Assembly (NCBI RefSeq): GCF_001544615.1
Contig: NZ_FCNV02000014.1
Coordinates: 1 to 64,000, forward strand
DNA length: 64,000 nt
Source of the DNA: Caballeronia concitans
Lineage (GTDB): Bacteria > Pseudomonadota > Gammaproteobacteria > Burkholderiales > Burkholderiaceae
Direction of reading: 5' to 3'
Shown: positions 19,489 through 48,733 of the stretch, piece after piece
How positions within the stretch are numbered: position 1 is the stretch's first letter
Layout of the letters: each line of letters starts with the position of its first letter
The notes under the pieces: generated by a model
What the model was told of the DNA's origin: nothing
Database searches by the model: none
Seen by the model: the letters and a program-made list of their open reading frames with translations, nothing else
Made by a program: the position numbers and the translations under genes

Positions 19489-23310
<3,822 letters not shown>

Positions 23311-32388: not shown

Positions 32389-33384
32389 TCAAACTTGCGG
32401 TGCCGCCGGCAACGGCCGGCCATGCGCGCGTTCACGGATCGCTCCGAAGTCGGCCGGCGGGCGATGCAAGTCGAGGCGGCGGCCGGCCTTCACGATCTGG
32501 CTAGGAATGTCATGGCCGATGAGCGCGGGCAGGCGCTTCGCGGCATCGATGAGGCCGCCGAGATTCACGCCCGTGTCGTAGCCCATGAGTTCAAGCGCAT
32601 GCACGATCTCCTCGCTGCACACGTTGCCCGTCGCGCCCGGCGCATACGGACATCCGCCGATGCCGCCGAGCGACGCATCGAACCGGTGCGCTCCCGCGTC
32701 GATGCCCGCGAGCACGTTCGCGAGTCCCATGCCGCGCGTGTTGTGAAAGTGCAGCGTGAGTTCGGTGTCCGGCCAGCGCGTGCGAAACGCGCTCGCGAGC
32801 GCGGCCACCTGAGTCGGATACGCCATGCCGGTGGTATCGCATAACGTGACGCCGCGCGCGCCGATCGTGCCGATGAAAGCGTCGCACCACTCCATCACGG
32901 TGGACTCGGCCACGTTGCCCTCCATCGGGCAACCAAATGCACAGGATAACGAAACATTTATCGCGACACCCGTATCGCGTGCGATATGGGCCACCGCCGA
33001 GAGCGCGTCGAACGACTGGCTGCGCGTCATTCGCAGGTTCGCGAGATTGTGCGTTTCGCTCGCGGACATCACGAGATTCAATTCGTCCGCGCGGGCTTCG
33101 ATTGCCCGCTCCGCGCCGCGCACGTTCGGCACGAGCGCGCTGTACACGACGCCTGGCCGGCGCTCGATGCCGCGCAGCACGGCATCCGCATCGCTCAAGG
33201 CAGGAATCACCCTAGGCGAAACGAACGCGGTCACTTCGATCTTCGCCACGCCGGCGCGCGACAAGGCATCGACGAGCGCGATTTTCTCTTCCGTCGCAAC
33301 GAACGCGGACTCCGCCTGGAGGCCATCGCGCGTGCCGACTTCCTGCATGTAGATGCGCCGTCCGGCGCCGTTCCAGAGCTTCAT
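32389..33384 (-). CDS. Hydroxymethylglutaryl-CoA lyase-like enzyme
   Basis: 331 residues from ATG 33384, overlapping the CoA-transferase stop (ATGA) and preceded by AGGTGG. TIM-barrel of the HMGL family: QEVGTRDGLQ at the N-terminus (catalytic Arg-Asp), TLHFHNTRGMG with the metal His pair, and the lid Cys in GGIGGCPYAPGATGNV. It cleaves HMG-CoA or a related 3-hydroxy-3-methyl acyl-CoA to acetyl-CoA and a keto acid. With a CoA transferase and a transporter upstream, the operon looks built to import, activate and cleave a branched dicarboxylate such as hydroxymethylglutarate or citramalate; the substrate is an inference. Confidence 0.9.
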   Translation of the reverse strand: MKLWNGAGRRIYMQEVGTRDGLQAESAFVATEEKIALVDALSRAGVAKIEVTAFVSPRVIPALSDADAVLRGIERRPGVVYSALVPNVRGAERAIEARADELNLVMSASETHNLANLRMTRSQSFDALSAVAHIARDTGVAINVSLSCAFGCPMEGNVAESTVMEWCDAFIGTIGARGVTLCDTTGMAYPTQVAALASAFRTRWPDTELTLHFHNTRGMGLANVLAGIDAGAHRFDASLGGIGGCPYAPGATGNVCSEEIVHALELMGYDTGVNLGGLIDAAKRLPALIGHDIPSQIVKAGRRLDLHRPPADFGAIRERAHGRPLPAAPQV

Positions 33385-34586
33385 GCGACCACCTTTCTGC
33401 CGCGCAATGCGGCGATATCTTGCGTCGAATAACCGAGTTCCCGCAGGACGTCGTCGGTGTCGTCGCCGAGTCCGGGGGCCGAACTGCGCACCGTGCCCGG
33501 CGTGCCGAGCAGCTTCGGCACGACGCCCGGCACTTCTACTTCGTAACCGTCGCGCGTGGTTTGAGAAAGGATCATGTCGCGCGCGCGGTAATGCGGATCT
33601 TCCGCGATGTCCTGCGCCGTGTAGACCTTGCCCGCCGGCACGCCCGCCGCGCCGAGACTTTCGAGGATATGCTGCACGGGTTGCGTGAGCGTCCACGCTT
33701 CGATGGCCCGATCGAGTTCGTCAGCGCGTGCGACACGTCCCGCGTTATCCGCGAGATCGGGCGCCGCGCCCAGATCGTCGCGGCCGATGGTCTGCATCAA
33801 ACGCTTGAAGATGCTGTCGCCATTGCCCGCGATCAGCACGTACCCGTCCGAACAGCGATACGCATTCGACGGCGCAATGCCCGGCAGCGCGCTGCCCGCT
33901 GCTTCCCGCACCGCGCCGAACGCGCTGTACTCGGGAATCAGGCTCTCCATCACGTTGAAGACGGCCTCGTTCAACGCGACATCGATGACTTGCCCCTTCC
34001 CGCCATTCACCTTGCGATGATAAAGCGCAGTGAGAATGCCGATGGTGCCGTGCAGCGCCGCGAGCGTATCGCCGATGGAGATGCCGCAACGCACCGGCAC
34101 CCGCCCAGGCTCGCCGGTCAGATGCCGCAGCCCGCCCATCGCTTCGCCGATCGCGCCGAAGCCCGGCAGATCACGAAAAGGCCCGGTCTGCCCATAGCCC
34201 GAGATGCGCAGCATGACGAGGCCGGGATTGACGCTCGACAGTTCGTCCCAACCGAGCCCCCAGCGTTCGAGCGTGCCCGGACGGAAGTTTTCGATCAGCA
34301 CGTCCGCTTCGGCAATCAGCTTGCGGGCGATGTCCTAGCCTTCCGGACTGCGCAGATCGAGCGCGATGGAGCGCTTGTTGCGCGATTGCACTTGCCACCA
34401 TACCGATGTGCCGTCCTTGATGAGACGCCAGTTGCGCAACGGGTCGCCGCTGCCGGGCGCTTCGATCTTGATGACGTCCGCGCCGAACTCGCCGAGCGTC
34501 TTGCCTGCGAAGGGCCCTGCGATCAGCTGCCCCATCTCGATGACGCGCACGCCTTGCAAAGCGGCAGCGGACATGACGTTGTTCAT
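33381..34586 (-). pseudogene. CaiB/BaiF CoA transferase interrupted by an amber codon
   Basis: From ATG 34586 the frame encodes VRVIEMGQLIAGPFAGKTLGEFGADVIKIE, the standard family III CoA-transferase start, but hits TAG at 34335-34337. The same frame resumes without a shift at DIARKLIAEADVLIENFRPG and runs to 33381, about 401 codons in all. Family members have Gln at this point (SPEGQDIA), so a single CAG-to-TAG change explains it. The catalytic Asp region (ALNEAVFN) and GGVPAGKVYT-like end region survive. It would move CoA onto a carboxylic acid for the lyase downstream. Inactive unless the stop is read through or is a sequencing error. Confidence 0.88.
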
Positions 34587-35971: not shown

Positions 35972-36146
35972 GTTCGTCTCCGGTTATCGCCGGACTCCGT
36001 GCGCTCATCGCTATGCATGGAGTGCGGCTGCCAATAAGAATCGGGCGCTCTGGTGGCGCATGGAGACATACTGATGGCGCGGCCTACGACGGAGAAGCGC
36101 AAAGAGGCGAAACGAGCTTTCGCGGTCTGCGAAAGCTGAAGCGGTG

Positions 36147-37064
36147 TCAGTTCGATGTCGACCGACTACTCTGCGTCTTGCAGAGATGATCGACGAGAAG
36201 GCGCACGTGGCGCGAAACTGCATTCGGGTCCCGCATGCCGATCAAAAGCTGGCGCTCGGTCCATGCGTCCTTCAGGGGAACCTGACGCAGATTGAGCGAT
36301 CGCACGAGCGCATGCACGGCCAGCGATGGAAGCACCGCGACGCCCATGCCCGCCGCAACCATTTGAAGCATGGCGTCGAAGCTGCGTACCCGGATGCGCA
36401 ACTTGAGATGCCGCCCCAGCGCTTCCGCTTCCATCTGCATGCGTTCGGCGAGCGAGGTGCCCTTCGAAAGACTCACGAAGTCGTATTCGAGTGCTTCTTC
36501 GAAGGCGATGGAACGCCGCGCGGCCAAAGGATGCGACCGGGGCATGACGAGCACGAGGCGATCGGCGTGATAGTTCGTCAAGTGAATGCCCAGGGCCGGC
36601 GTGCGGTCCGCGAAGATGCCGAGATCCGCACGGCCGTCGAGCAACGCGAGCACGATGTCCCTGCTGTTTTGCTCTTCCAGCTCGATGCGTATGCCCGGGT
36701 TCGCCTCCGTGAAGCTCGCGATGTCGGACGGCAGGAACTGCGTGATCGCTGACGTGTTCGCCCATAGTCGCACGATGCCGACCATGCCGGACGCATAGTC
36801 CGATAGATCGGCGGCGAGCCGGTCGACATCGTGAAGAATGCGTTGCGCGTGATCGTACAAGGCCTGCCCCGCGACGCTGCGCGTGACGCCGCGAGAATGG
36901 CGTTCCAGAAGGCTCGCGCCCACGGCCCCTTCGAGGTCCGAGATGCGCTTGCTCGCCGCTCCGACCGCCAGATTGGCCAGTGCCGCGCCTTTGCTGATGC
37001 TGCCGGCCCGGACGATCAGACTGAACAGGGACAGAGAAACCAGATCGAGGCGGTGCAGGTTCAT
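36147..37064 (-). CDS. LysR-family transcriptional regulator
   Basis: 305 residues. The helix-turn-helix lies at residues ~5-65, with SLFSLIVRAGSISKGAALANLAVGAASKRISDLE, given here across the recognition helix. The effector domain starts near 90 (GIVRLWANTSAITQFLPSDIASF). A variant of the usual 'F..VA..GS...AA..L' motif is seen (LIVRAGSISKGAAL). It is the first gene of the strand that continues to the MFS transporter 175 bp later, so it probably regulates that operon. The inducer is unknown. Confidence 0.88.
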   Translation of the reverse strand: MNLHRLDLVSLSLFSLIVRAGSISKGAALANLAVGAASKRISDLEGAVGASLLERHSRGVTRSVAGQALYDHAQRILHDVDRLAADLSDYASGMVGIVRLWANTSAITQFLPSDIASFTEANPGIRIELEEQNSRDIVLALLDGRADLGIFADRTPALGIHLTNYHADRLVLVMPRSHPLAARRSIAFEEALEYDFVSLSKGTSLAERMQMEAEALGRHLKLRIRVRSFDAMLQMVAAGMGVAVLPSLAVHALVRSLNLRQVPLKDAWTERQLLIGMRDPNAVSRHVRLLVDHLCKTQSSRSTSN

Positions 37065-37185
37065 CGCAAGTCACTCTCAAAGTATTGCGTCATTCGGCGG
37101 CGCAAAGGCGCAAACGTGCCGATGCAGGCAAAGCGCTTGCTGATCGATTCCCGCGCTTATGCCATCTCAGACACTGGAGGACATC

Positions 37186-37395
37186 TTGACGACTTCACGC
37201 CTCGGGGCATACGTGCCCGCACCACATGACAATGTGGCATGCGTTATTCAATTGATGTCCACGCCACCCGATGAACCATCGGACGCCGATAGCGACGACC
37301 TCGACGATCTTCTCGACGAGACCGGCGCCGTCACCAATCGAAGCGATGGCAAGACCGGCACGGATACCGAGGCCGAGCCGAATCGCAAGTCATGA
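37186..37395 (+). CDS. Possible small acidic protein
   Basis: 69 residues if TTG 37186 is used, which has GGAGG 5 bp upstream. ATG 37159 and ATG 37255 are also in frame. The C-terminal half is a disordered, strongly acidic tract (DEPSDADSDDLDDLLDE) ending NRKS. I know no family. The only support is the RBS and the non-random acidity. It is convergent with the flavin reductase gene, 22 bp away. Confidence 0.35.
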   Translation: MTTSRLGAYVPAPHDNVACVIQLMSTPPDEPSDADSDDLDDLLDETGAVTNRSDGKTGTDTEAEPNRKS

Positions 37396-37416
37396 CCTCT
37401 CGCGGGCGATGCGCGA

Positions 37417-37998
37417 TCAACGCGGCAGTGCCCTCGCCTGCCGCACGTCCGATGCCCGCGCGAATTTCCCCGCGCCCAAATGGTGAATCGTATGTAATTC
37501 TGCATTCGATTCATCGAGACTCCAGTGGCCGTTCGCAAACACGCGCTCGTCCGCCGCGGCCGCGACGACTTCCGCGAAACACGTGTCGTACGCGGCTTCC
37601 GTATGCGGCTCGCTGATCAGCCGGCATTCGAGCCACGCGGCGCAGTCCTGCTCGATGAGCGGCACGCCGAGTATTTGGCCTTTTGTCGATTGAATACCGA
37701 ATGCATCGAACTTGTCGATGTCGCGGCCGCTCGCCGTGCCAACGGCATACGTCAGGTCGATCGCCGCCGCTCCCGGCACACAGACGCCGAACGATCCGCT
37801 CGCCGCGATGAGTTCGCGCGTGTACGTGCTCTTGTCGATCACGATAGCGATGCGCGGCGGCGTGAATTCGACGGGCATCGACCAGGCGGCGGCCATTATG
37901 TTGCGGCGCTCGCCGTGGGCGCTCGTCACGAGCACGGTCGGGCCATGATTGACGAGGCGGCTCGCGTGTTCGAGCGCGACGGGGACGAATCGGGACAT
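37417..37998 (-). CDS. Flavin reductase-like (FMN-binding) protein
   Basis: 193 residues. The flavin-reductase-like domain shows GPTVLVTSAHGERRNIMAAAWSMPVEFTPP, split as the first strand and FMN phosphate loop, then RIAIVIDKSTYTRELI and the FGVCVPG strand. Conserved later parts include PLIEQDCAAWLECRL and FAEVVAAAAD. Members reduce FMN with NAD(P)H or bind it tightly as a stress protein. No monooxygenase partner is adjacent. It could supply reduced flavin elsewhere. Confidence 0.88.
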   Translation of the reverse strand: MSRFVPVALEHASRLVNHGPTVLVTSAHGERRNIMAAAWSMPVEFTPPRIAIVIDKSTYTRELIAASGSFGVCVPGAAAIDLTYAVGTASGRDIDKFDAFGIQSTKGQILGVPLIEQDCAAWLECRLISEPHTEAAYDTCFAEVVAAAADERVFANGHWSLDESNAELHTIHHLGAGKFARASDVRQARALPR

Positions 37999-38227
37999 GG
38001 GCGGAATCCGTTTGGACTAAGAGACGCGAGATTGTAGGCGTTATCGGGACGGAGCACGCTGCCGGCTCCTCCGATGCGCGCGCCTTTGATTTCGCGGAGA
38101 ATCAACTAGATGCGCGCGGTCGCTTCGCATTTTTGCAGTGCAACAGCACACGGCATATCGTGCGGGCGGCGATAGCCGTTGGCATTTTGTATGCCGCAGG
38201 AAACGTCTTGCATTCAAGGAGCAGCAG

Positions 38228-38620
38228 ATGGCACGCGAAATCATTCGTGTGGAACCGTTGTCCAGCTGGCTCGAGCGCTGGAAGGCGCCGACCTCCGTTG
38301 CCACGCGTCATGGCGACACGGTCTACGTGTCCGGTCTTCCGCCCTTCGATCCGCAGACCGGCGAAGTGCTCGATGCGCCCATCGAACAGCAGACGCAACG
38401 CGTGCTGGAGCAACTGAAGCTGTGCGTCGAGACGGCGGGATCGTCGCTGGATCAGGTGCTCAAGTGCAATGTCTATTGCACGTCGGTCGAACTGTTTCCC
38501 GTCGTCAACGAGATCTATGCGCGCTTCTTCGGACCGGAGCCGCCTGCCCGCATCTTCATCAACGTGCCCGCATGGCCCGGACGTTTCGACATCGAGATCG
38601 ACTGCGTGGCAGCGGTCTAA
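38228..38620 (+). CDS. RidA/YjgF-family protein
   Basis: 130 residues from ATG 38228 with AAGGAG 7 bp upstream; earlier in-frame codons to 38138 lack an RBS. The chorismate-mutase-like RidA fold is seen in SVATRHGDTVYVSGLPPFDPQTGEV, TQRVLEQLKLCVETAGSSLDQVLKCNVY and PARIFINVPAWPGRFDIEIDCVA. In classical RidA the active-site Arg lies in the PARxxxxV segment; PARIFINV fits. Such enzymes hydrolyse reactive enamines or imines from PLP enzymes. This variant, with GLPPFDP, belongs to a side branch of unknown substrate. It stands alone. Confidence 0.88.
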   Translation: MAREIIRVEPLSSWLERWKAPTSVATRHGDTVYVSGLPPFDPQTGEVLDAPIEQQTQRVLEQLKLCVETAGSSLDQVLKCNVYCTSVELFPVVNEIYARFFGPEPPARIFINVPAWPGRFDIEIDCVAAV

Positions 38621-38656
38621 GCCAGAGGTGTGCATCATCGCGACTCACTCGATATT

Positions 38657-38705
38657 CGAAGGCGGTTATTAACGGCAGCCTTCGCGCCGACTTTAGGGTT
38701 TTTTA
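38657..38705 (+). terminator. Possible Rho-independent terminator after the RidA gene
   Basis: CGAAGGC at 38657-38663 pairs with GCCTTCG at 38678-38684 around a 14-base loop. A run of six T follows at 38699-38704. The gap between stem and T run is long, so function is uncertain. Confidence 0.4.
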
Positions 38706-38776
38706 TCTGGCGAGCCGTTCGCCGGGAACATCTTTCAATTCTCTGTAAAAACGCGCCAAAAAAACTTCAGACGATT

Positions 38777-38793
38777 CTTATCGAATTGATAAG
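38777..38793. promoter_or_regulatory. Operator-like inverted repeat before the exported-protein operon
   Basis: CTTATC at 38777-38782 and GATAAG at 38788-38793 flank GAATT. A further CTTATC copy lies at 38807-38812. The surrounding 38750-38830 is the most AT-rich stretch nearby, as expected for a promoter. It lies 244 bp before the lipoprotein gene that starts the operon. The 416-bp gap holds no gene I can support. Confidence 0.45.
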
Positions 38794-39036
38794 CACATGA
38801 TATGCTCTTATCCAACTCAGAAAGATAAACATCGCATGAGCGCACGGGGTGAGTGGCTAATCAGTAAGTCGTGATACTGCGCGGGGTCCAGACATTTCGC
38901 TGAGAGAAAGCTTTCGCTTTAATTAGACATCCAAAAGAATTCGAGGCTCATACGAGGGCCGGCTGTAGTCACTAGCAGAACACGAACAAAAGCACCTCAG
39001 GTGCAGCACGATTTTCCAGTACGGGGAGACCAACCC

Positions 39037-39534
39037 ATGCAGTTTCGCAGCATTCATGTTGCGCCGCTTCTGCTCGCCCTCGCGCTTGGCGTGTCGGCGT
39101 GCAAAGACAGCGAGAAAAGCCAGTCCACGCGTGAAGGCGACGTCCCGGTGACCGTCGCGACGGTGCGCACAGAACTCGAACACAAGAACTTCGGCCAGGC
39201 GGCATCGCTCGCCGACAAACTCACTGCCTCCAATCCGAACGATGTCGATGCCTGGATGATCGCCGCCGACGCGCGTTCGGCAGTGGGCAATCGCATCGAC
39301 GCGCTGGCTGCGCTGGAAAGCGCGATGAATCACGGCATGCGCGACATCACGCGCCTCGATGCCGATTCCTATCTCGATCCGCTTCGGTCGTCGAGCGAAT
39401 ACGAAGCGCTGCTCATGCGCTTCGGGCTCATGCGGCCGCTCGCGAAGGCCGGCGATACCTCGATCGTCGAAACGTCGACAGGCACGGTGGTGCGTGCCGG
39501 CGACGTGTCCGTCTCTCTTCCGAACGACAAGTAA
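39037..39534 (+). CDS. Exported-operon gene A: lipoprotein with TPR-like helices
   Basis: 165 residues from ATG 39037 behind GGGGAGACC. The lipobox LGVSAC predicts attachment at Cys22, with K-D following, a residue pair that permits inner-membrane retention in enterobacteria. The mature part has helical pairs resembling a short TPR: VRTELEHKNFGQAASLADKLTASNPNDVDAWMIAADARSAVG, given here as one continuous region around residues 45-85, then a second unit with ALAALESAMNHG. It ends in a Thr/Val-rich strand region. No family I can name. First gene of a tight run; the next gene starts 18 bp later. Confidence 0.8.
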   Translation: MQFRSIHVAPLLLALALGVSACKDSEKSQSTREGDVPVTVATVRTELEHKNFGQAASLADKLTASNPNDVDAWMIAADARSAVGNRIDALAALESAMNHGMRDITRLDADSYLDPLRSSSEYEALLMRFGLMRPLAKAGDTSIVETSTGTVVRAGDVSVSLPNDK

Positions 39535-39552
39535 TCCATCACACGCAACGAC

Positions 39553-41190
39553 ATGACTTTCTTCAAACAGAAACTGCTGAGCGTCGCGGTCGCGGCGCTC
39601 GTCATCACGCCTTGCGCCCACGCGCTCGATATCGAGGCACGCGGCGTCGGTTCCGCTGCGATCACGGGCGACGTCAACTCCGTGCGTACCGTGGCGCTGC
39701 GTCAGGCGAAGCGCAATGCGGTGCTGTCCGCGCTCGACAGGGTCGTCGGCGCGGGAACGAGCCGCAACGCCGACGTGCAGGCGAAGCTCGACGACCTCGT
39801 CGTGCAGATCGGCGACGAAGCGTTCTATGACGTCACACCGAGTTCCGCCGACGGCCAGTATCAGGTCAAGGTGACGCTTCGCATGGACGACAAGGCGCTG
39901 CGCAGCGAGATCAGCGATCTCGGTCTCGCGCTGAACACGAACGCCACGCGCAGTCAGCCGATTCTCGTGATGATGGACGAGTTCTTCACCACGCCGACCA
40001 ATCTTCGCGCCCCGCTCGAAGAACTCACTGAATTCCGCCACGAAGCCGGCTCGCATTACAACGAAAAGGAAGCCGCGTCGAGTTCGAAACATGCCGCGTA
40101 TGCGGCGAGCAGCGATGCCGCTTATGCGTCGAAGGAACAGGTCGCGTTCGCCGTGAACGACAAGTCGGCCAATCACGTGAACGCTGCGTACAACGCGAAC
40201 GTCGCGGGCGCCGCGCAAGACAGCTACGGAAACGCGGCGGCAATGTCCGCGAGCGGCTCGGGCCGGCTCGATGCTTCGAGCCAGAACAGTCATCAGGCGG
40301 CGGGCGCAGCGTCCCGTCAGGTGGCCGCTGCGGCGAGCAGCCGGGTCGCGGCGGCGTCATCGTCGAATTCGGCTTACGCGCATAACGTGAACGCCGAAGA
40401 TCACGACAACACGTACTTCCGCAAGCTCGTGAAGTACCAGCCGCAAAACACCGGACCCGACCGCAAGAACTACACGTATAACGAGCTGAAAGGCCAGCTC
40501 GGCGATCTCGACATCAAGGTGCTCGACAACGCGATCTTCAAGAGCCGCTACTTCGGCGACCGCGCCATCACGCTGGATCAGTTGGAGAACGGCGCGGAAC
40601 TCACCAAGTACGTCGACTACGCGCGCAAGGACGCGACGGCCGACTATCTGATGATCGGCTCGTCGGTGATCTACGATCTCGGCGTCGATAAAAACTCGGG
40701 CCAGGAGTCGTGCACGGGCGTCGCCAGCACGAAGACGTTCTCGACCAAGACCGGCGAAGACATCGGCTCCGCCACGCAATCGGAAGCCGCGATCGGCGCA
40801 TCGCCGGACGATTGCCGCGCACGCCTCGCCGTCAAGCTCGCGGGCAGCCTCGGCAATCAGGTCGGCAAGCGCATTCAGGAGTTCGTCAAGAAGCGCACGA
40901 TGTACGGCGCCGAATACACGATCCGTCTCACGGGCGACAATCTTCCGCTCATGACGCGCACGGCATTCGGCCAGGCGCTGAAGTCGGTGCCGGGTCTCGA
41001 CAAGGCCACGCAGCGTCAGGCCGGCGCCGGCCAGGTGGAAATGATCGCGACGTATCGCGGCAGCGATCCGCTCGATCAGGCAATCGCGATGGCGCTCGGC
41101 ACCAACCCGCAGTTCGCGAGCCTCGATTCGGCCGTGGACGGCAACGTCATCACGCTGTGCATGAACGGCTGCAAGAAGGCGGTGCACTGA
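39553..41190 (+). CDS. Exported-operon gene B: FlgT-N-like protein with long Ala/Ser-rich insert
   Basis: 545 residues. A signal peptide ends CAHA. Residues ~26-120 resemble the N-terminal domain of the flagellar outer-membrane ring protein FlgT (ARGVGSAAITGDVNSVRTVALRQAKRNAV, split over strand and helix; then VKVTLRMDDKAL). Residues ~172-280 are low-complexity, built from Ala, Ser, Asn, Tyr and His (SSKHAAYAASSDAAYASK and similar). Residues 285-545 form a second folded domain with a Cys in QESCTG, another in DDCRAR and two in LCMNGC. No flagellar gene is nearby. The stop is one base before the next ATG, so translation is coupled. Function unknown. Confidence 0.85.
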   Translation: MTFFKQKLLSVAVAALVITPCAHALDIEARGVGSAAITGDVNSVRTVALRQAKRNAVLSALDRVVGAGTSRNADVQAKLDDLVVQIGDEAFYDVTPSSADGQYQVKVTLRMDDKALRSEISDLGLALNTNATRSQPILVMMDEFFTTPTNLRAPLEELTEFRHEAGSHYNEKEAASSSKHAAYAASSDAAYASKEQVAFAVNDKSANHVNAAYNANVAGAAQDSYGNAAAMSASGSGRLDASSQNSHQAAGAASRQVAAAASSRVAAASSSNSAYAHNVNAEDHDNTYFRKLVKYQPQNTGPDRKNYTYNELKGQLGDLDIKVLDNAIFKSRYFGDRAITLDQLENGAELTKYVDYARKDATADYLMIGSSVIYDLGVDKNSGQESCTGVASTKTFSTKTGEDIGSATQSEAAIGASPDDCRARLAVKLAGSLGNQVGKRIQEFVKKRTMYGAEYTIRLTGDNLPLMTRTAFGQALKSVPGLDKATQRQAGAGQVEMIATYRGSDPLDQAIAMALGTNPQFASLDSAVDGNVITLCMNGCKKAVH

Positions 41191-41191
41191 G

Positions 41192-43210
41192 ATGCGCACG
41201 AAAGTTTCCGCACTGATCGCCGCGCTCGCTTTAATAGGCGTGCCGCACGCGCAGGCCGCGCAATCGGTCGGCCTGTATGTCGTGCCCGGCATCTTCTTCG
41301 ACGACGTCGCGCCCGGCTCCGATCGCACCGCATCGGCGAGCAGCAAGATCGATCCCGGCTTTCGCGCATCGCTCGATATCGGGCAGACGGTCGCGCTGCT
41401 TCAGCAACGCGCACAGGCGCATTTCTCCGCGCTCGAACCGACCATCGACAGCAAGAACCGTCTGCGCACGCTGGCCTTGTCCGTGCAGGTGACGCGCGTC
41501 TCGCGCTATCAGATCGACAAGAGCGACGGCACGACGGACGTCTACTTGCCGATCACGCTGAGCGTGTACTTCAGCAATCCGGTCACGGGCGAAGTGCTGC
41601 AGTCGTTCAGTCAAACGCGCTATGACGTGATGACCGTGCAGCAATCGCTGTCACACGCCGATCTCGATGCGAAGGTCGCCGCGGCGTATCGCGCAGGTTT
41701 CGCCGCGCTGCTCGACAGCACGCTCACGGCGGCATCGAGCCAGTTCAGTCCGTACGTCATCGAAGCGACCGTGGCGGACACGTGGCGCGGCTTCACGCTG
41801 CTCGACAAGGGATCGCAGTCGGGCATCGGCAAGGGCGACGTGCTCGATGCCGGCGACGCCGAAGTGCGCGTGGTCTACGCCGGCCAGAGTTACGCGGTCG
41901 CGGTTCCGGTGCTCGGCAAGCCCGCGAGCGGCGCGGTGTTCAGCCGCCCCGGCACGATGGCGCTCTCCGACGTGCGCAAGCCGCGCGTGCTGGCGATCGT
42001 GAGCGATGGCAACAGCGACCTGTCCGATGCCGTCAGCACGCAGCTTTTCACCGACCGCCTCGGCAGTAACGCGCCGTTCGCCACGCTGCCGCTCAACGCG
42101 AACTTCAGTCAGGTGCAGGCGTCGATCGACAGCCATACCGGAATCGGTCATGACGTGAGCGGCAAACGCGCGCTGCCGAACTACTTTATCCGCATGGTGT
42201 TGCCGCCCGCGCGTCACTACACGCTCGCGACCAATCTCGCCTACAAGACGCAGCAGCACTATCAGGCGTGGGCGTTCGCGGAACTCGTATCGAAAGACGG
42301 GCGCGTGCTGTATGCAGCGGACGTGGATCAGCGCATCGACGATACCGTGACCAATCAATCCGGCTTCAACGTCGCGGACAGAAAGGAAGTAATCCTTAAG
42401 AATGCGCTCAGCGATCTCGCCGACCGCTTCGCGAAAGAGGTGCGCTTCAAGCCGGTGACGCTGAACGTGACCGATGCATCGTCCGATACGTTTCAGATCG
42501 ACGATCCCGGCATGAACCTGCAGCCCGGCGACAGCTTTCAGGTGTCGCACGACGCGGGCCGTCCGGGGAACATCACCGAACACGTGCTCGTGCCGACGTG
42601 GGAAGCGCGCGTCGTGAGCCGCAACGGCAATACCGTCGTCGCGTCCACGGACCTCGCCGTCGCGGGCGATCCGCCGCGCCCTTCGCGTGGCGATGTCGTG
42701 CTGCTGGACGGCATTGCGAACGCATCGGCGAGCGCGCAGCGGCTGGCGTTCTGTCCGTCGGACAAGAATCAGATCGGCTCGGTCACGCTCGATCGCTTCA
42801 ACCAGCTCGCGTATGCAAGCGCGACGCGTGCGCCCATCACGCTCGTCGATCCCACGCTCGCGGCGCTCGTCAAGGCACGCGTGAACGGCACGACCGGTTT
42901 CTCGACGACGCTCGAACTCAAGCCGGCCGTCTATGACCGCTGCCTCCAGGCGCTGAACCGCATCGATCAGAAAGACCAGCATTGCGAAAGCGGCGCATGC
43001 GCGACCGTCTACAACGTGCGTCTCGCGTACCGTCAGAAAGCGGGCGACACGGTCGCGGGGCAAGCCATTCTCGAACATGGCTTCACGACGAACGCGTATC
43101 CGGCCTCGACCGACAAGTCGAATATCGCCGAACTACAGAACGTGGATCTCGACGCGGACACGCGCTCGGGTCTCGATGGTGTCATGAAGCAACTCCTCAA
43201 AACCAACTAG
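41192..43210 (+). CDS. Exported-operon gene C: large periplasmic repeat protein
   Basis: 672 residues with a signal peptide ending HAQA. It looks multi-domain. An N-terminal region (about 25-190) carries VQVTRVSRYQID and TDVYLPITLSVYFSNPVTGEVLQSF. Two or three small barrel-like units each hold a Gly-Asp turn: QSGIGKGDVLDAG near 212, NLQPGDSFQVS near 446 and PSRGDVVLLDG near 500. Such 'GD' turns occur in the C-terminal domain of FlgT-like proteins. The last part has Cys pairs (DQKDQHCESGACATVY). I cannot assign a family; the layout suggests a rim or ring component in the periplasm working with gene B. Confidence 0.83.
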   Translation: MRTKVSALIAALALIGVPHAQAAQSVGLYVVPGIFFDDVAPGSDRTASASSKIDPGFRASLDIGQTVALLQQRAQAHFSALEPTIDSKNRLRTLALSVQVTRVSRYQIDKSDGTTDVYLPITLSVYFSNPVTGEVLQSFSQTRYDVMTVQQSLSHADLDAKVAAAYRAGFAALLDSTLTAASSQFSPYVIEATVADTWRGFTLLDKGSQSGIGKGDVLDAGDAEVRVVYAGQSYAVAVPVLGKPASGAVFSRPGTMALSDVRKPRVLAIVSDGNSDLSDAVSTQLFTDRLGSNAPFATLPLNANFSQVQASIDSHTGIGHDVSGKRALPNYFIRMVLPPARHYTLATNLAYKTQQHYQAWAFAELVSKDGRVLYAADVDQRIDDTVTNQSGFNVADRKEVILKNALSDLADRFAKEVRFKPVTLNVTDASSDTFQIDDPGMNLQPGDSFQVSHDAGRPGNITEHVLVPTWEARVVSRNGNTVVASTDLAVAGDPPRPSRGDVVLLDGIANASASAQRLAFCPSDKNQIGSVTLDRFNQLAYASATRAPITLVDPTLAALVKARVNGTTGFSTTLELKPAVYDRCLQALNRIDQKDQHCESGACATVYNVRLAYRQKAGDTVAGQAILEHGFTTNAYPASTDKSNIAELQNVDLDADTRSGLDGVMKQLLKTN

Positions 43211-43236
43211 AAATAACTCTCACGGGAACACATCGC

Positions 43237-43926
43237 ATGAAAACCTACTCCGCATTGCTCGGCGCCCTCATCGTGACCGGCCTCGCCACCCAGATGCCGC
43301 AAGCCAACGCTTTCGGCCTCGGCAATCTGACCTCGGCGATTCCGGGTGTGGGCGGCAGCGCATCGGCGAGCACGGTGACCGGCTCCGACATCGATCTCTT
43401 CATCAAGACCGCGCAGGACGCGGACACGATGATCGCCACGTCGTCGCGCTACATTTTCCGCGCGATCGAAGGCAAGGAAGCCATCGCGAAGCAGGAAGCC
43501 GAACTTGCAGCGGCGAACGCGATCGCCGATCCGGCCGAGAAGGCCGCGGCCATCAACAAGATTCGCGAAGACGAAGCGACGGCCGTTCAGAAGGCGCTGG
43601 CAAGCAGCGACATTCAGCAGAAGCTCGCCGCGATGAACAAGGATCAGTTGAAGGCGTTCGGCAACGCGGCATTCACCTACTTCCTGGGCGTGCTGAAGGA
43701 CAAGCAACTGGCCGACGGAAGCCGCGCGCTCGTGACCGGCGTCGCCGCGAATCCGATGCTGCTCCCGCGTCTCGCCGCACTGAAGGATGTCGCCACGTCC
43801 GTGAGCGCGCAGGCCGTCAGCACCGCGAAGATCGGCGAAGGTCTGGTTCGTCTGTCGAGCACGGGCAAGATTGCCGCGCTGCCGAAGTCGGCTTCCGAAG
43901 ATCAGAAGCCGGTCGAAACGCTGTAA
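43237..43926 (+). CDS. Exported-operon gene D: secreted helical protein
   Basis: 229 residues from ATG 43237 (weak GGGA upstream). A signal peptide ends QANA. A Gly/Ser-rich linker (LTSAIPGVGGSASAS) precedes a nearly all-helical body: DIDLFIKTAQDADTMIATSS, KEAIAKQEAELAAANAI, DPAEKAAAINKIREDEATAVQKAL and RLAALKDVATSVSAQAVSTA. No Cys in the mature part. No family recognised; it resembles a helical chaperone or scaffold. It follows gene C by 26 bp. Confidence 0.8.
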   Translation: MKTYSALLGALIVTGLATQMPQANAFGLGNLTSAIPGVGGSASASTVTGSDIDLFIKTAQDADTMIATSSRYIFRAIEGKEAIAKQEAELAAANAIADPAEKAAAINKIREDEATAVQKALASSDIQQKLAAMNKDQLKAFGNAAFTYFLGVLKDKQLADGSRALVTGVAANPMLLPRLAALKDVATSVSAQAVSTAKIGEGLVRLSSTGKIAALPKSASEDQKPVETL

Positions 43927-43950
43927 GCGTCAATCGGCAATTCATCGATC

Positions 43951-43984
43951 GAGCGTGAATCCGACATCGTCCGGATTCACGCTC
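43951..43984 (+). promoter_or_regulatory. 13-bp perfect hairpin between genes D and E
   Basis: GAGCGTGAATCCG at 43951-43963 pairs perfectly with CGGATTCACGCTC at 43972-43984 around ACATCGTC. No T run follows. It could be a partial terminator, an mRNA processing or stability hairpin that lowers or separates expression of gene E, or a protein-binding site. Confidence 0.55.
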
Positions 43985-44020
43985 GCGCATCCAGATCATT
44001 CGATTCGATAGCAGGACATC

Positions 44021-44359
44021 ATGAAGAGACTCACGTTCGCGGCGGCCATCGTTCTTTCGGCGTTGTCGATCAACGCGCACGCCGAGATGCGCTGCGGGAT
44101 CATCACCAACACACTCCCCGGCGGCGATCTGGTGCTGGACGATCGCGACGCTGCCTGGACGCTCGACCAGAACGGCGTGCCCGACAACATGCCTCCTACC
44201 AATCGCGGTGAGCAATGCGGCTGCGTCACCGGCACGACGGACGCACAGACGCACACGTTCACCAGCGTGACGGGCGGCAAGCTGAAGCCGATGAAAGTCT
44301 GCGATGCAGACAAGAAACTCACTCAGGCATTCAAGGCGCGATATCACCTGGCCAATTGA
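44021..44359 (+). CDS. Exported DUF4087-like protein
   Basis: 112 residues from ATG 44021. A signal peptide ends INAHA. The mature protein follows the DUF4087 pattern: EMRCGIITNTLPGG, then LDDRDAAWTLDQNGVP, then a Cys pair QCGC and a C-terminal KPMKVCDAD. Four cysteines could make two disulfides in the periplasm. Function of the family is unknown. It follows the exported operon after the hairpin, 94 bp from gene D, and may be its last gene. Confidence 0.75.
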   Translation: MKRLTFAAAIVLSALSINAHAEMRCGIITNTLPGGDLVLDDRDAAWTLDQNGVPDNMPPTNRGEQCGCVTGTTDAQTHTFTSVTGGKLKPMKVCDADKKLTQAFKARYHLAN

Positions 44360-44551
44360 AACGCGGCTGCGTCTCGCACAAATCCGTTCCTCGACATTCC
44401 TTATGAGCCGCTTAAGAAAGGCTTGGCACTAGAAAAATAAAAACGCGAAATAAAAGCGAACTGAAAGTCCTTGTTCATCGACTCGCCGCATTTCCAAAGC
44501 ACAGTAACCGACTTCCGCAAGACGTTCATCAACAGCAAACGGAGTCGAGGC

Positions 44552-46270
44552 ATGAGGAAGACGAACAAGCGCGCAGTCCCGCAACGCCCCATCGCCGCCG
44601 CGATCCTCGCGGTGGCCGCATTGCATGCGTCGATTGCAATGGCAGGCGACGACGATCATCGCGGCCACGATCGCGACAACAACCATGCCCACGCGATCAA
44701 GCATGTGATGCTCATCAGCTTCGACGGCATGCACGAGCAGGACGTGGCGCGATGCATCGCGTCCAATACGTGTCCCAACATCGCGCTGCTGGCAAAGGAC
44801 GGCACGACTTACACGAACGCGCATACGCCCGGCCTGTCGGATTCGTTTCCGGGACTCGCCGCGCTCGTGACGGGCGGCTCGCCCAAGACCGCCGGACTCT
44901 TCTATGACGTGTCCTACGACCGCACGCTCTACTCGCCGTCGGACTCGAATTGCACCGGTCCGCAAGGCTGGAACGTGGTCTTCGATGAAACCACCGGCAT
45001 CGATGCGAAGAATGGCGGCGCGCTCACGCATCTCGATGGCGGCGGCGCGTTCAATCCGCAGGCCATTCCGCATGCGAAGGTCAATGGCGTGTGCAAGCCG
45101 GTGTATCCGCACGACTATGTGAAGACGAATACCGTTTTCGAGGCGATCAAGGCGGGCGTGCCGAACGCGCGCACCGCGTGGGCCGACAAGCATGCATGGG
45201 GTTATGACTGGCTCAACGGACCGTCGGGCGCGGGCGTCGATGATCTGATGCGCACGGAGATCAACTCCATTGATCCGAAGACGCAGACGGACTACACCGA
45301 CGTCTATACCCATACCGAAGTGTTCGACGATCTGCATGTGCAGGCGTTGATCAATCAGATCGATGGCAAAGATTCCGCGGGCACGGCATCGGCCGCTGTG
45401 CCGACGCTCTTCGGCGCGAACTTCCAGACGTTGAGCGTGGCGCAGAAGGCGCCAGTCGCGAAGAGCGGCGGCTATCTCGATGCGAGCTTCACGCCGGGAA
45501 CGCAAGTGAGCGCGGCCATCAAGTATGTCGATGCATCGCTCGGCCGCATCGTGGCGGAACTGAAGCAGCGCAATCTCTATCAGTCGACCGCGATTGTCGT
45601 GACGTCCAAGCATGGTCAGTCGCCGGCGGATCACAGCAAGCTCGTCAAGAACGGCGACACGCTTTCCAAGCTGCTTCAGACGAACAATTATCTCGATCCC
45701 AACGGCAACTACGGCCAGAACGCGACGAAGAGCGGCAATCTGAACGACGGCACCGGGCTCGTCAATACCGGCTTCGCGCAAACGGACGACGTCGGGCTCA
45801 TCTGGCTGCGCGATCAGCATCAGCTTGCGCAGGTCGTCAAGACGCTGAAGGACAATCTGAGCTGCAACGCGCCCGGCATCTGCGCCGATGGTCCGTATGC
45901 ATATCTGCTCTATGGTCCGCGCATGACGGCCGCATTCGGCGATCCGCGTGAAGGCCGCACGCCCGATATCATCGTGCAGCCGAATCCGGGCGTGATCTAT
46001 ACGTCGAGCACATCGAAGGACGCGGAACACGGCGGCAATGCACCGGACGACAATCATCTCGCACTCGTGGTCTATGCGCCCGGCGGCAAGCACGCGGGCG
46101 GCACGGTGAACGATCGCGTGCTGACGACGCAAGTCGCCCCCACGATGCTGAATCTGCTCGGCGTGGATGCGAAGCGTCTGCACTCGGTCGTGGCCGAAGG
46201 CACGCAAGCGCTGCCGGGCTTCGATGGCGATCACGGTCATGATCACGATCGCGATCACGACCGCGACTGA
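44552..46270 (+). CDS. Exported alkaline-phosphatase-superfamily hydrolase
   Basis: 572 residues from ATG 44552, GGAG 7 bp upstream. A signal peptide ends SIAMA. The phosphodiesterase/nucleotide-pyrophosphatase type of the superfamily is seen in HVMLISFDGMHEQDV (metal Asp), the nucleophile region HTPGLSDSFPGLAALVTGG, VTSKHGQSP for a metal His, and DDNHLALVVYAPG near the end. The mature N-terminus and C-terminus are both rich in His and Asp (DDDHRGHDRDNNHAHA; HGHDHDRDHDRD), likely metal-binding tails. Substrate unknown: a phosphodiester or pyrophosphate. A 192-bp gap separates it from the DUF4087 gene. Confidence 0.88.
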   Translation: MRKTNKRAVPQRPIAAAILAVAALHASIAMAGDDDHRGHDRDNNHAHAIKHVMLISFDGMHEQDVARCIASNTCPNIALLAKDGTTYTNAHTPGLSDSFPGLAALVTGGSPKTAGLFYDVSYDRTLYSPSDSNCTGPQGWNVVFDETTGIDAKNGGALTHLDGGGAFNPQAIPHAKVNGVCKPVYPHDYVKTNTVFEAIKAGVPNARTAWADKHAWGYDWLNGPSGAGVDDLMRTEINSIDPKTQTDYTDVYTHTEVFDDLHVQALINQIDGKDSAGTASAAVPTLFGANFQTLSVAQKAPVAKSGGYLDASFTPGTQVSAAIKYVDASLGRIVAELKQRNLYQSTAIVVTSKHGQSPADHSKLVKNGDTLSKLLQTNNYLDPNGNYGQNATKSGNLNDGTGLVNTGFAQTDDVGLIWLRDQHQLAQVVKTLKDNLSCNAPGICADGPYAYLLYGPRMTAAFGDPREGRTPDIIVQPNPGVIYTSSTSKDAEHGGNAPDDNHLALVVYAPGGKHAGGTVNDRVLTTQVAPTMLNLLGVDAKRLHSVVAEGTQALPGFDGDHGHDHDRDHDRD

Positions 46271-46556
46271 TCGCTCCATGCGAATCAGCGGCTGAAAAAG
46301 CACCGTCGCGGCGCGCTCGCGGGCGCGTCGTGATGGTACGTTGCATCGCCAAGACACCCTTAGCCACCGGCATCGATGAGTAGAAATTTCATATGAACAC
46401 AAAAGGTGACGGAACAAATACCTAGAGCGCTCGCGGTAAAAGCATGCTAGATGCGTCGCGCTAAGACTTTCTTAAGTAATGGTTGACTAAACTTTGAGCA
46501 CTTCAACGAGCGAAGCAATATCCGCTTCTGCACTCGTTCTCTCAAGCGGAGCATCC

Positions 46557-47312
46557 ATGCAAGAAAGAAGCGCACTCACTGTCAAGGTTCCTGAAGTTAC
46601 TTTTGGCTTCTGGCTCATCAAGATCGCAGCCACGACGCTCGGTGAAACCGGCGGCGACGCGGTGTCCATGTCGATGAAGCTCGGCTATCTGGTCAGCACG
46701 ATTATCTTCGCGATCGTATTCATCGCCGCTGTCACCGCGCAGATGAAGGCCCGCAAATTTCATCCCGCGCTTTACTGGCTCACTATCGTCGCGACGACGA
46801 CCGTCGGCACCACGATGGCGGATTTCGCCGATCGCTCGCTCGGGATCGGCTACGCAGGCGGCAGTGCGATTCTGCTTGCGTTGCTGCTGATTTCACTCGG
46901 CGTGTGGTATCGCGTGACGGGTTCGGTATCGGTGAAGACCGTGTCATCGCCGCGCGCCGAAATCTTTTATTGGGTGACGATCATGTTCTCGCAGACGCTC
47001 GGCACGGCGCTCGGCGACTGGACCGCCGATACCGCGGGCCTCGGCTACACGGGCGCCGCGCTGATCTTCGGCGGGTTGCTCGCGCTGACCGCGATTGCCT
47101 ACTTCGCGACGCGCATCTCGCGCACGTTCCTGTTCTGGAGTGCGTTCATTCTCACGCGACCGCTGGGCGCGGTGCTGGGCGATTTCCTCGATAAACCCAT
47201 CGCGCAAGGCGGACTGGATTTGAGCCGTTACGGAGCATCGCTCGCGCTCGTGACGTTCATGCTCGTCTGCATGCTGATGTTCAGGCAGCGCCCGGCTTCG
47301 GCCATGCATTGA
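46557..47312 (+). CDS. COG4705 membrane protein with DUF347 repeats
   Basis: 251 residues from ATG 46557 with GGAG 6 bp upstream; a TTG at 46494 opens the frame but has no RBS. Eight helices in four repeats, each with a Gly...Asp core: TTLGETGGDAVSMS, TTVGTTMADFADRSLG, SQTLGTALGDWTADTAG and TRPLGAVLGDFLDKP. COG4705 proteins are inner-membrane and are often encoded next to two-component systems, as here (the histidine kinase ends 45 bp away, convergent). Transported ion unknown. Confidence 0.88.
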   Translation: MQERSALTVKVPEVTFGFWLIKIAATTLGETGGDAVSMSMKLGYLVSTIIFAIVFIAAVTAQMKARKFHPALYWLTIVATTTVGTTMADFADRSLGIGYAGGSAILLALLLISLGVWYRVTGSVSVKTVSSPRAEIFYWVTIMFSQTLGTALGDWTADTAGLGYTGAALIFGGLLALTAIAYFATRISRTFLFWSAFILTRPLGAVLGDFLDKPIAQGGLDLSRYGASLALVTFMLVCMLMFRQRPASAMH

Positions 47313-47356
47313 AGGGGCCACAGGCATCGTGCCCCGCGCTCACGATTCTGTTCGCG

Positions 47357-48733
47357 CTATAAAGCCCCGAACGTCGCCGTGAAGATGACCCCGCGCATCG
47401 GCTGCTCGCGATGCGTAAGCGCAATCTCCCCGCGATGCGCCTGCACGATCTCCTTCGCGATCGCGAGCCCGAGCCCGGTCCCTTCGGTATCGGCGGATGC
47501 GCGATAGAACGGCTCGAACACGCGGCTGCGCGCTTCGGCGGGAATGCCGGGGCCGTCATCGGTGACGGTGAGCGTCACGCGAGTTTCGTCGCGCGCCACC
47601 GCGACGGTCACATGCCCGCCCGCTTGCGTATAGCGAATCGCGTTCTCGGTCACGTTATGAACGAGCGCCGACAGCAATCCCTGATGCCCGATCATCCACG
47701 CTGATTCGGCCAGCTCCGCGCCGAGGTTGATGTCGTGCTTCTGCGCGAACATCGCGAGATCTTCGATCACGTCCTGCGCAATCGCAGCGAGATCCACCTT
47801 CTGTCTCGCGAGCTGCGTGTAGTCCGCGGCTTCCGCCTGCGCGAGCAGCAACAGCTTGTTGGTCAGGCCGACCATCGACCGGTTGCTGCGCTGCATTGCC
47901 GCGAGCGCTTCTGAAAGCGTCGGCTCCATCTCGCGATGCTGCCGCGCGAATTGCAGTTGCGTTTCCAGCAGCGTGAGCGGTGTGCGCAACTGATGCGCGG
48001 CATCCGCGATGAAGCGCCGTTGCGCCGCCACCTGAAGCCCGAGCCGCGCGATGCACTGATTGATCGCCTCGACAATGGGCCGCAACTCCGTATGCATTCG
48101 CTCGACGCGCAAGGGTTCGAGCTGCATCGGATCGCGATCCATCACCTCTTCCTTCACCTTCAGGAGCGGCCGCAATTCGAACGTCAGGCCGATGCACGTC
48201 AGCGCCACCGCAAGCAGCACCATCTCGATCTGCCGCACGAGTTGCGGACGCCAGATTTCGCGGAGCATCGCATCGCGCGAAGCCTGCGTCTTGCCGATCG
48301 AAACGAGCACGCTGCGGATCGCGCCGTTGTCATACATCTGGCGCACCATGCCGACCGCGCGGATCGGCTTGCCATGTATGGCGGCGTCGTAGAAGACCGG
48401 TGAATCATGGGCCGCCGACGTCTTGCGCGTCGGAAAGTCGGGCGCGCCCGCGAGCAGACGCCCATCGTCGACGCTGACGTTGTAGAAGACCTGATCGCCT
48501 TGCGGCGACGCGAACACTTCGAGCGCGGCAGGCGGAATGTCCACAAGCAGGCGGCCATCGGACCACTCCACTTCGCCCGCTATCATCCGCGCCGAAGCGA
48601 GCAGCGTGTTTTCCTGCACGAGATCGGCGGTGTGACGGGCGTTGTCGTACGCGGCCTTGCCGGTCACGAACACATAGATCGCGAGCGGCACGAGCAGCCA
48701 CCACAACAGGCGAATGCGCAAGCTATTGGTCAT
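47357..48733 (-). CDS. Sensor histidine kinase (TctE/QseC group)
   Basis: 458 residues from ATG 48733, which overlaps the regulator stop by 11 bases. A transmembrane helix (RLLWWLLVPLAIYVFVTG) and a short periplasmic sensor region (about 35-150) are followed by a second helix near 165-185 (MVLLAVALTCIGLTF). A HAMP-like linker leads to HisKA with AAHQLRTPLTLLETQ (phospho-His) and HATPase with ENAIRYTQ, TDDGPGIP and GTGLGLAI. In TctE relatives the signal is tricarboxylate or a similar anion; here it is unknown. The adjacent COG4705 gene is convergent and a possible target. Confidence 0.92.
   Translation of the reverse strand: MTNSLRIRLLWWLLVPLAIYVFVTGKAAYDNARHTADLVQENTLLASARMIAGEVEWSDGRLLVDIPPAALEVFASPQGDQVFYNVSVDDGRLLAGAPDFPTRKTSAAHDSPVFYDAAIHGKPIRAVGMVRQMYDNGAIRSVLVSIGKTQASRDAMLREIWRPQLVRQIEMVLLAVALTCIGLTFELRPLLKVKEEVMDRDPMQLEPLRVERMHTELRPIVEAINQCIARLGLQVAAQRRFIADAAHQLRTPLTLLETQLQFARQHREMEPTLSEALAAMQRSNRSMVGLTNKLLLLAQAEAADYTQLARQKVDLAAIAQDVIEDLAMFAQKHDINLGAELAESAWMIGHQGLLSALVHNVTENAIRYTQAGGHVTVAVARDETRVTLTVTDDGPGIPAEARSRVFEPFYRASADTEGTGLGLAIAKEIVQAHRGEIALTHREQPMRGVIFTATFGAL

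Follow-up and report, generated by a model that had tools for sequence, protein, structure and literature searches.

Do five consecutive genes for exported proteins in Caballeronia concitans form one system, and what might such a system do? The genes, here termed A to E, lie in a stretch of 64,000 nucleotides (NCBI RefSeq assembly GCF_001544615.1, contig NZ_FCNV02000014.1, positions 1 to 64,000 of the forward strand), hereafter the window. A sequence-only reading of the window had described them as five exported-protein genes on one strand with junctions of 18, 1, 26 and 94 bp, and all of this was confirmed exactly. The conserved unit is A-B-C-D, with B-C-D as its core. It is a rare, horizontally moved cassette reaching alpha- and gammaproteobacteria, not a general Burkholderiaceae operon. 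We tentatively propose, at a probability of about 40%, that A-D encode an outer-membrane-anchored periplasmic ring or scaffold that is non-flagellar and remotely related to the H-ring, with D as partner or cargo. In Vibrio, the H-ring is formed by FlgO, FlgP and FlgT at the inner face of the outer membrane and helps the flagellum through it (accessible text of PMC7990780). The features concerned, with the lipobox and the signal-peptide-like starts of B, C, D and E assigned by eye, are as follows (amino acids, aa).

39037..39534 (+): gene A, lipoprotein with lipobox LGVSAC, weak TPR and a C-terminal tail, RAGDVSVSLPNDK, that is conserved; candidate anchor in the outer membrane
39553..41190 (+): gene B, exported protein of 545 aa; FlgP/FlgT-N-like domain at 26-122, Ala/Ser-rich insert at ~163-285, four invariant Cys
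41192..43210 (+): gene C, exported protein of 672 aa; residues ~121-222 resemble the FlgT middle/C-terminal region
43237..43926 (+): gene D, exported protein of 229 aa with no known relatives; putative cargo or partner of the complex
43950..43985 (+): 14-pair hairpin in the D-E spacer, terminator-like, without a T run
44021..44359 (+): gene E, exported DUF4087 protein (Pfam PF13316, E 4e-10); cassette neighbour
38952..44367 (unstranded): DNA block in common with Caballeronia grimmiae plasmid p3 (megablast, 85%)

Twelve copies were counted, namely the window and loci L012-L017, L019, L021 and L024-L026; the D genes of L012 and L016 were taken from L020 and from L018-derived coordinates, on contigs that are the same judging by length. 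C and D were intact in all 12 copies and B in 11, the remaining one (L021) being frameshifted. The order B-C-D was preserved in Caballeronia, Cupriavidus, Psychrobacter, Novosphingobium and L017, which belongs to another Burkholderiales family. Pairwise identities over 11 taxa were correlated between the genes (B-C 0.98, B-D 0.98, C-D 0.996). The B, C and D trees agreed on the main groups, with some Cupriavidus copies placed differently; they are largely congruent, and the three genes are co-inherited. Genes A to E of the window are under purifying selection. Ratios of nonsynonymous to synonymous substitutions (dN/dS) against the C. grimmiae plasmid copy, calculated with our own Nei-Gojobori script, were 0.31 for A, 0.06 for B, 0.09 for C, 0.12 for D and 0.12 for E, and such low values indicate that A-E behave as real genes.

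The grouping of all five genes, as first proposed, had to be narrowed. A-D are kept together, whereas E lies behind the hairpin, was present in one of 13 fetched cassette loci (that of C. grimmiae, L026) and occurs elsewhere without B: E-matching DNA was found in at least two further genomes of the genus (G535 and G657), both without B in the search with B. E is therefore not part of the unit and, as far as seen, accompanies the cassette in no genus but Caballeronia. The whole D-E spacer folds (shuffle z −3.14), with the strong 14-pair hairpin within it, and a hairpin likewise lacking a T run folds at the equivalent position in C. grimmiae. The terminator scan did not report the D-E hairpin, and no sigma-70-like promoter was found by consensus scan. 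The idea of a promoter element common to Caballeronia and Cupriavidus was given up, because the best match reached 16/24 bases where 60 shuffles averaged 15.9. Separately, a 23-base element, TAAAKCACACGAWAWCCGTATCA, occurred once per genome, by its coordinates ahead of the cassette, in 5/5 Cupriavidus-group genomes searched (e.g. L014, L015 and L021). As it is single in each genome and absent from the C. concitans genome, it points to no regulon.

Carriers of the cassette are scattered soil and water bacteria, which often hold it on plasmids. In the genome samples, which were drawn evenly, two of 300 genomes of the order had C (C. concitans itself being one), as did 9 of 398 genomes of the family, the other eight all Cupriavidus. 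In the phylum sample, C occurred in 1 of 398 genomes, again C. concitans. Searches with B picked up 1 of 369 genomes of the class and 1 of 58 of the genus, that one being C. concitans each time, and 1 of 6 genomes of the family of G205. These samples do not prove absence elsewhere, since plasmid copies exist in Psychrobacter and Novosphingobium, groups with no match in the samples. Synteny across Burkholderiaceae, which the sequence-only reading had put forward for checking, held in part: A-D were syntenic in the copies found, so that these genes are not scattered among other genomes, but E falls outside the unit and the cassette is rare in the family.

A plasmid search with B matched 5 of 72,556 records: C. 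grimmiae p3 (94%), two large Cupriavidus replicons, a 49-kb plasmid of Psychrobacter urativorans (32%) and a 35-kb plasmid of Novosphingobium humi (24% over about half of B). In each of the three plasmid records opened, B, C and D were consecutive, and on the Novosphingobium plasmid a lipoprotein A stood directly upstream. Several features link the copies to mobile DNA. When positions 36000-48000 of the window were compared with C. grimmiae p3, only 38952-44367 matched (85%) and neither flank did. The Psychrobacter copy is flanked by transposase genes on both sides, an IS605 OrfB gene lies directly downstream of the cassette in L017, and a site-specific integrase gene lies ~4 kb upstream of it in C. 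grimmiae. No empty insertion site was found; the flank genes matched separate places in other genomes of the genus, among the matches listed. B, the only query used, had no relative in 50,697 phage records, and deep profiles of B and C gave 89 and 41 pattern matches in viral contigs, none of which was confirmed. On C. grimmiae p3 (L026, 18304-25635), the cassette adjoins TerD, VWA and TerY-C type genes.

This rare, patchy, plasmid- and transposase-associated distribution, together with the tellurite-type genes near one copy, would suit accessory cargo that acts at the cell surface in defence, in competition or in resistance to stress. However, PADLOC matched none of eight proteins from three copies at E 0.1, and defence genes were not recurrent among the neighbours seen; we regard this function as unlikely.

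Mature B scored 42.4 against the FlgP profile (E 4.8e-5), compared with a maximum of 23.2 among 200 shuffled decoys, and the alignment runs from the first mature residue of B to ~122, covering the whole FlgP-like domain. Against the FlgT profile, B scored 33.1 at FlgT-N (maximum of 200 shuffled decoys 22.1), while a reversed FlgT control scored 24.8 against B and 16.2 against C. With 60 decoys per pair, z-scores were 12.3 for B-FlgP, 7.6 for B-FlgT and 1.5 for B-CsgG. The FlgT-N likeness noticed earlier from the sequence was thus borne out, but the best match of B is FlgP/LPP20 and not FlgT. CsgG had been considered for B because its insert might sit at what we take to be the position of the CsgG constriction loop; a relationship of B to CsgG was dropped, as the middle region scored 16.9 against 100 decoys reaching 18.0.

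The insert of B, earlier called unusual and here taken as residues 163-285, contains 49% Ala+Ser and 8% V/I/L/M/F/W; the remainder of the protein has 17% and 27%, respectively. Its dN/dS against C. grimmiae was 0.05, indicating that its sequence is constrained within Caballeronia. Across five members of the deep alignment, an Ala+Ser content of 43 to 51% was kept while sequence and length (86 to 134) varied. Amphipathic periodicity was seen in one of five sequences, barely above the 95% shuffle level and at a beta-like angle. Four Cys of B and two of C are shared by all five members of the deep alignments, and beyond the signal peptides there is no strongly hydrophobic segment. Both observations fit soluble, oxidised proteins that are periplasmic or attached to the outer membrane.

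C scored 34.3 against the FlgT profile over residues ~121-222 (maximum of 200 shuffled decoys 26.9). With the FlgT domain borders that we assumed in placing this match, the stretch aligns with the end of the FlgT middle domain and the start of the C-terminal domain. The z-scores (60 decoys per pair) were 6.5 for C-FlgT, 5.7 for C-CsgG over 23 columns and −0.8 for C-FlgP. Judged by these profiles, both the FlgT middle/C-terminal likeness and a short CsgG-like stretch lie in C. A G-D motif at C 205-217 lies inside the FlgT-like stretch, and a second, weaker one aligns at ~C 402-455; self-comparison revealed no internal repeats in C. D matched none of the three family sets (z 0.6, 1.0 and −0.1).

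The CsgG-like stretch of C raises the prospect of curli-like secretion, in which B and C would form an outer-membrane gate or accessory ring and D would be the exported surface protein. In favour of this, D is exported, adjoins B and C in all copies read and has no known relatives. Yet no CsgG family match was obtained in B, C or the C. concitans genome, B lacks CsgG likeness, no transmembrane hairpin or hydrophobic segment is evident, and D shows no curlin-like repeats by eye. We consider such secretion fairly unlikely.

Library searches yielded little. B, C and D had no match in Pfam or NCBIfam at E 1. A search of A-E against PHROGs returned weak matches, the best being a tail-fibre family (E 0.005) over the low-complexity insert of B. 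Searches of the PDB by sequence (B, C) and by deep profile (B, C, D) gave nothing below E 0.3, and profiles were therefore compared directly. Rfam and tRNA searches of the window were empty. A full-length match of B and C to a characterised family, which would speak against the idea of an undescribed system, was not found in the libraries searched. No published description of the cassette was found in the literature searched, which leaves out most subscription journals.

The H-ring families FlgT_N, LPP20 and FlgO had no Pfam match at E 1 in A-E of the window, in the cassette proteins of L024 and L025 or in B-D of L017. FlgT_N was not found in the C. concitans genome, and no control genome matched in that search either. 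A search of 185 genomes for FlgT_N gave matches in 10, and six of the loci (L027-L032) made up the FlgT comparison set. L033 was treated separately, and L034-L036 were not used because they fell below the cut-off. The FlgP set comprised five lipoproteins adjoining genes of the FlgT set, which we take to be FlgP from this position. Of its two members scanned, one passed Pfam LPP20 and one fell below the cut-off; a clear FlgO is also encoded at the L027 locus, and NCBIfam named none of three FlgT-gene neighbours scanned. For CsgG, 11 sequences were kept from 14 loci tried of 20, and E. coli csgG was added.

A is the most variable member of the cassette. It carries sub-threshold TPR repeats (Pfam, NCBIfam) and was full length in 6 of 12 copies (window, L012, L016, L017, L025, L026), cut down to the lipobox and a ~30-residue tail in two (L014, L015) and frameshifted in one (L021), and it was not found in three (L013, L019, L024). 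Retention of the tail where the TPR part has been shed (L014, L015) suggests that the tail does the docking, and the copies without A indicate that docking by A can be lost or replaced. In Cupriavidus (L013, L014, L015, L019, L021), A appears to erode stepwise upstream of B, from full length to lipobox and tail and then to no detectable A with signal-peptide-like remnants. In L021 (G557), A and B are both frameshifted with C and D intact, reflecting sequencing error or decay.

A TPR-bearing lipoprotein beside FlgT-like-type partners also brings to mind LpoA/LpoB-like envelope maintenance, in which a factor tethered by a lipoprotein and forming no ring would activate or scaffold the assembly of peptidoglycan or of the outer membrane; the flexible insert of B could conceivably span the peptidoglycan. 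Against this, LpoA, LpoB and TolB gave no Pfam or NCBIfam match for A-E at E 1, a result of family searches without direct profile comparison, and the patchy distribution suits accessory cargo better than housekeeping. This explanation seems quite improbable.

We return to the proposed ring or scaffold. The gene order, the joint inheritance of the genes and the selection on them are observed, as are the links with mobile DNA and the remote similarity; the location, the formation of a ring and the roles of the A tail, the B insert and D are inferred. Lipidated A would sit in the outer membrane and use its conserved tail to dock the complex, for which the TPR part would not be needed. B, as the FlgP/FlgT-N-like component, and C, as the FlgT middle/C-like component, may assemble as a disulfide-locked ring, from which the Ala/Ser-rich insert of B could project as a flexible or extended segment. 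D, as partner or cargo, would be held by the ring or allowed to pass through the outer membrane.

As the nearest relatives found are H-ring proteins, the cassette might instead add an H-ring-like scaffold to the host motor as an accessory flagellar part. This is very improbable. No flagellar gene was seen by eye among the window open reading frames or the annotated neighbours of three plasmid copies (the PLSDB gene tables are incomplete, and no full family scan was made), and Pfam identified no FlgO-like gene in A-E. Furthermore, B-C-D is present on a plasmid of Psychrobacter, a genus described as non-motile in the accessible text of PMC5822837; this description and the non-flagellar annotated plasmid neighbours together make a general flagellar role unlikely.

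Several observations weigh against the ring or scaffold reading itself. The hhalign probabilities were modest (13 to 68%), the alignments were shallow (5 to 6 sequences), and neither B nor C has a Pfam-level match to FlgT_N, LPP20 or CsgG. The short CsgG-like match in C (z 5.7, 23 columns) means that its FlgT likeness may be one of fold only. FlgP is an outer-membrane lipoprotein, whereas B has no lipobox by eye and the lipoprotein of the cassette is A. The absence of A from 3 of 12 copies shows that the proposed anchor is not essential everywhere. A bolder version is doubtful: in it, A-D would specify a previously undescribed ring machine of the outer membrane that stands on its own, a relative of the H-ring that does without a flagellum, moves on plasmids among alpha-, beta- and gammaproteobacteria and has the new exported protein D as its client. 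If the ring or scaffold reading is right, FlgP/FlgT-type ring modules of the outer membrane would occur independently of flagella and be carried as cargo. This would bear on the origin of the H-ring, and with only four genes the cassette would be a small model of such a scaffold. Whether or not the mechanism is correct, B, C and D are three families of exported proteins that have no entry in the searched libraries and that stay together across classes of proteobacteria.

Elsewhere in the window, a gene for a CoA-transferase of family III (CaiB/BaiF-type; 33381-34586, − strand) is split by an in-frame stop at 34335-34337, and its two pieces match PF02515 at positions 88-366 and 1-74. A gene for an exported type I phosphodiesterase/alkaline-phosphatase-like protein (PF01663; 44552-46270, + strand) adjoins E; its relatives occur elsewhere in many genomes of the genus, among the matches listed, and it is thus not tied to the cassette. 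The start of a 1273-aa open reading frame (19489-23310, + strand) looks by eye like a CheB-type chemotaxis/signalling hybrid, with no flagellar gene seen nearby.

Among known systems, the curli channel protein CsgG resembles a 23-column stretch of C (z 5.7), and differs in that there is no Pfam CsgG match, no likeness in B and no CsgG match (0) in the C. concitans genome. L033 (G745), an uncharacterised FlgT_N protein, gave colinear weak matches to the N-terminal domain of B (E 8e-4) and to its C-terminal part (E 0.055) in a comparison as a single-sequence profile without decoys; it has no insert. FlgT of the Vibrio-type H-ring resembles the first domain of B through FlgT-N (z 7.6) and C 121-222 through its middle/C-terminal region (z 6.5). 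In the cassette, however, the FlgT-like parts are split over two proteins, B and C, neither of which matches Pfam FlgT_N, and no link to flagellar genes was seen. Residues 26-122 of B cover the whole domain of FlgP/LPP20, whereas B as a whole is 4-5 times the length of that domain and carries, in addition, the Ala/Ser-rich insert and further C-terminal parts.

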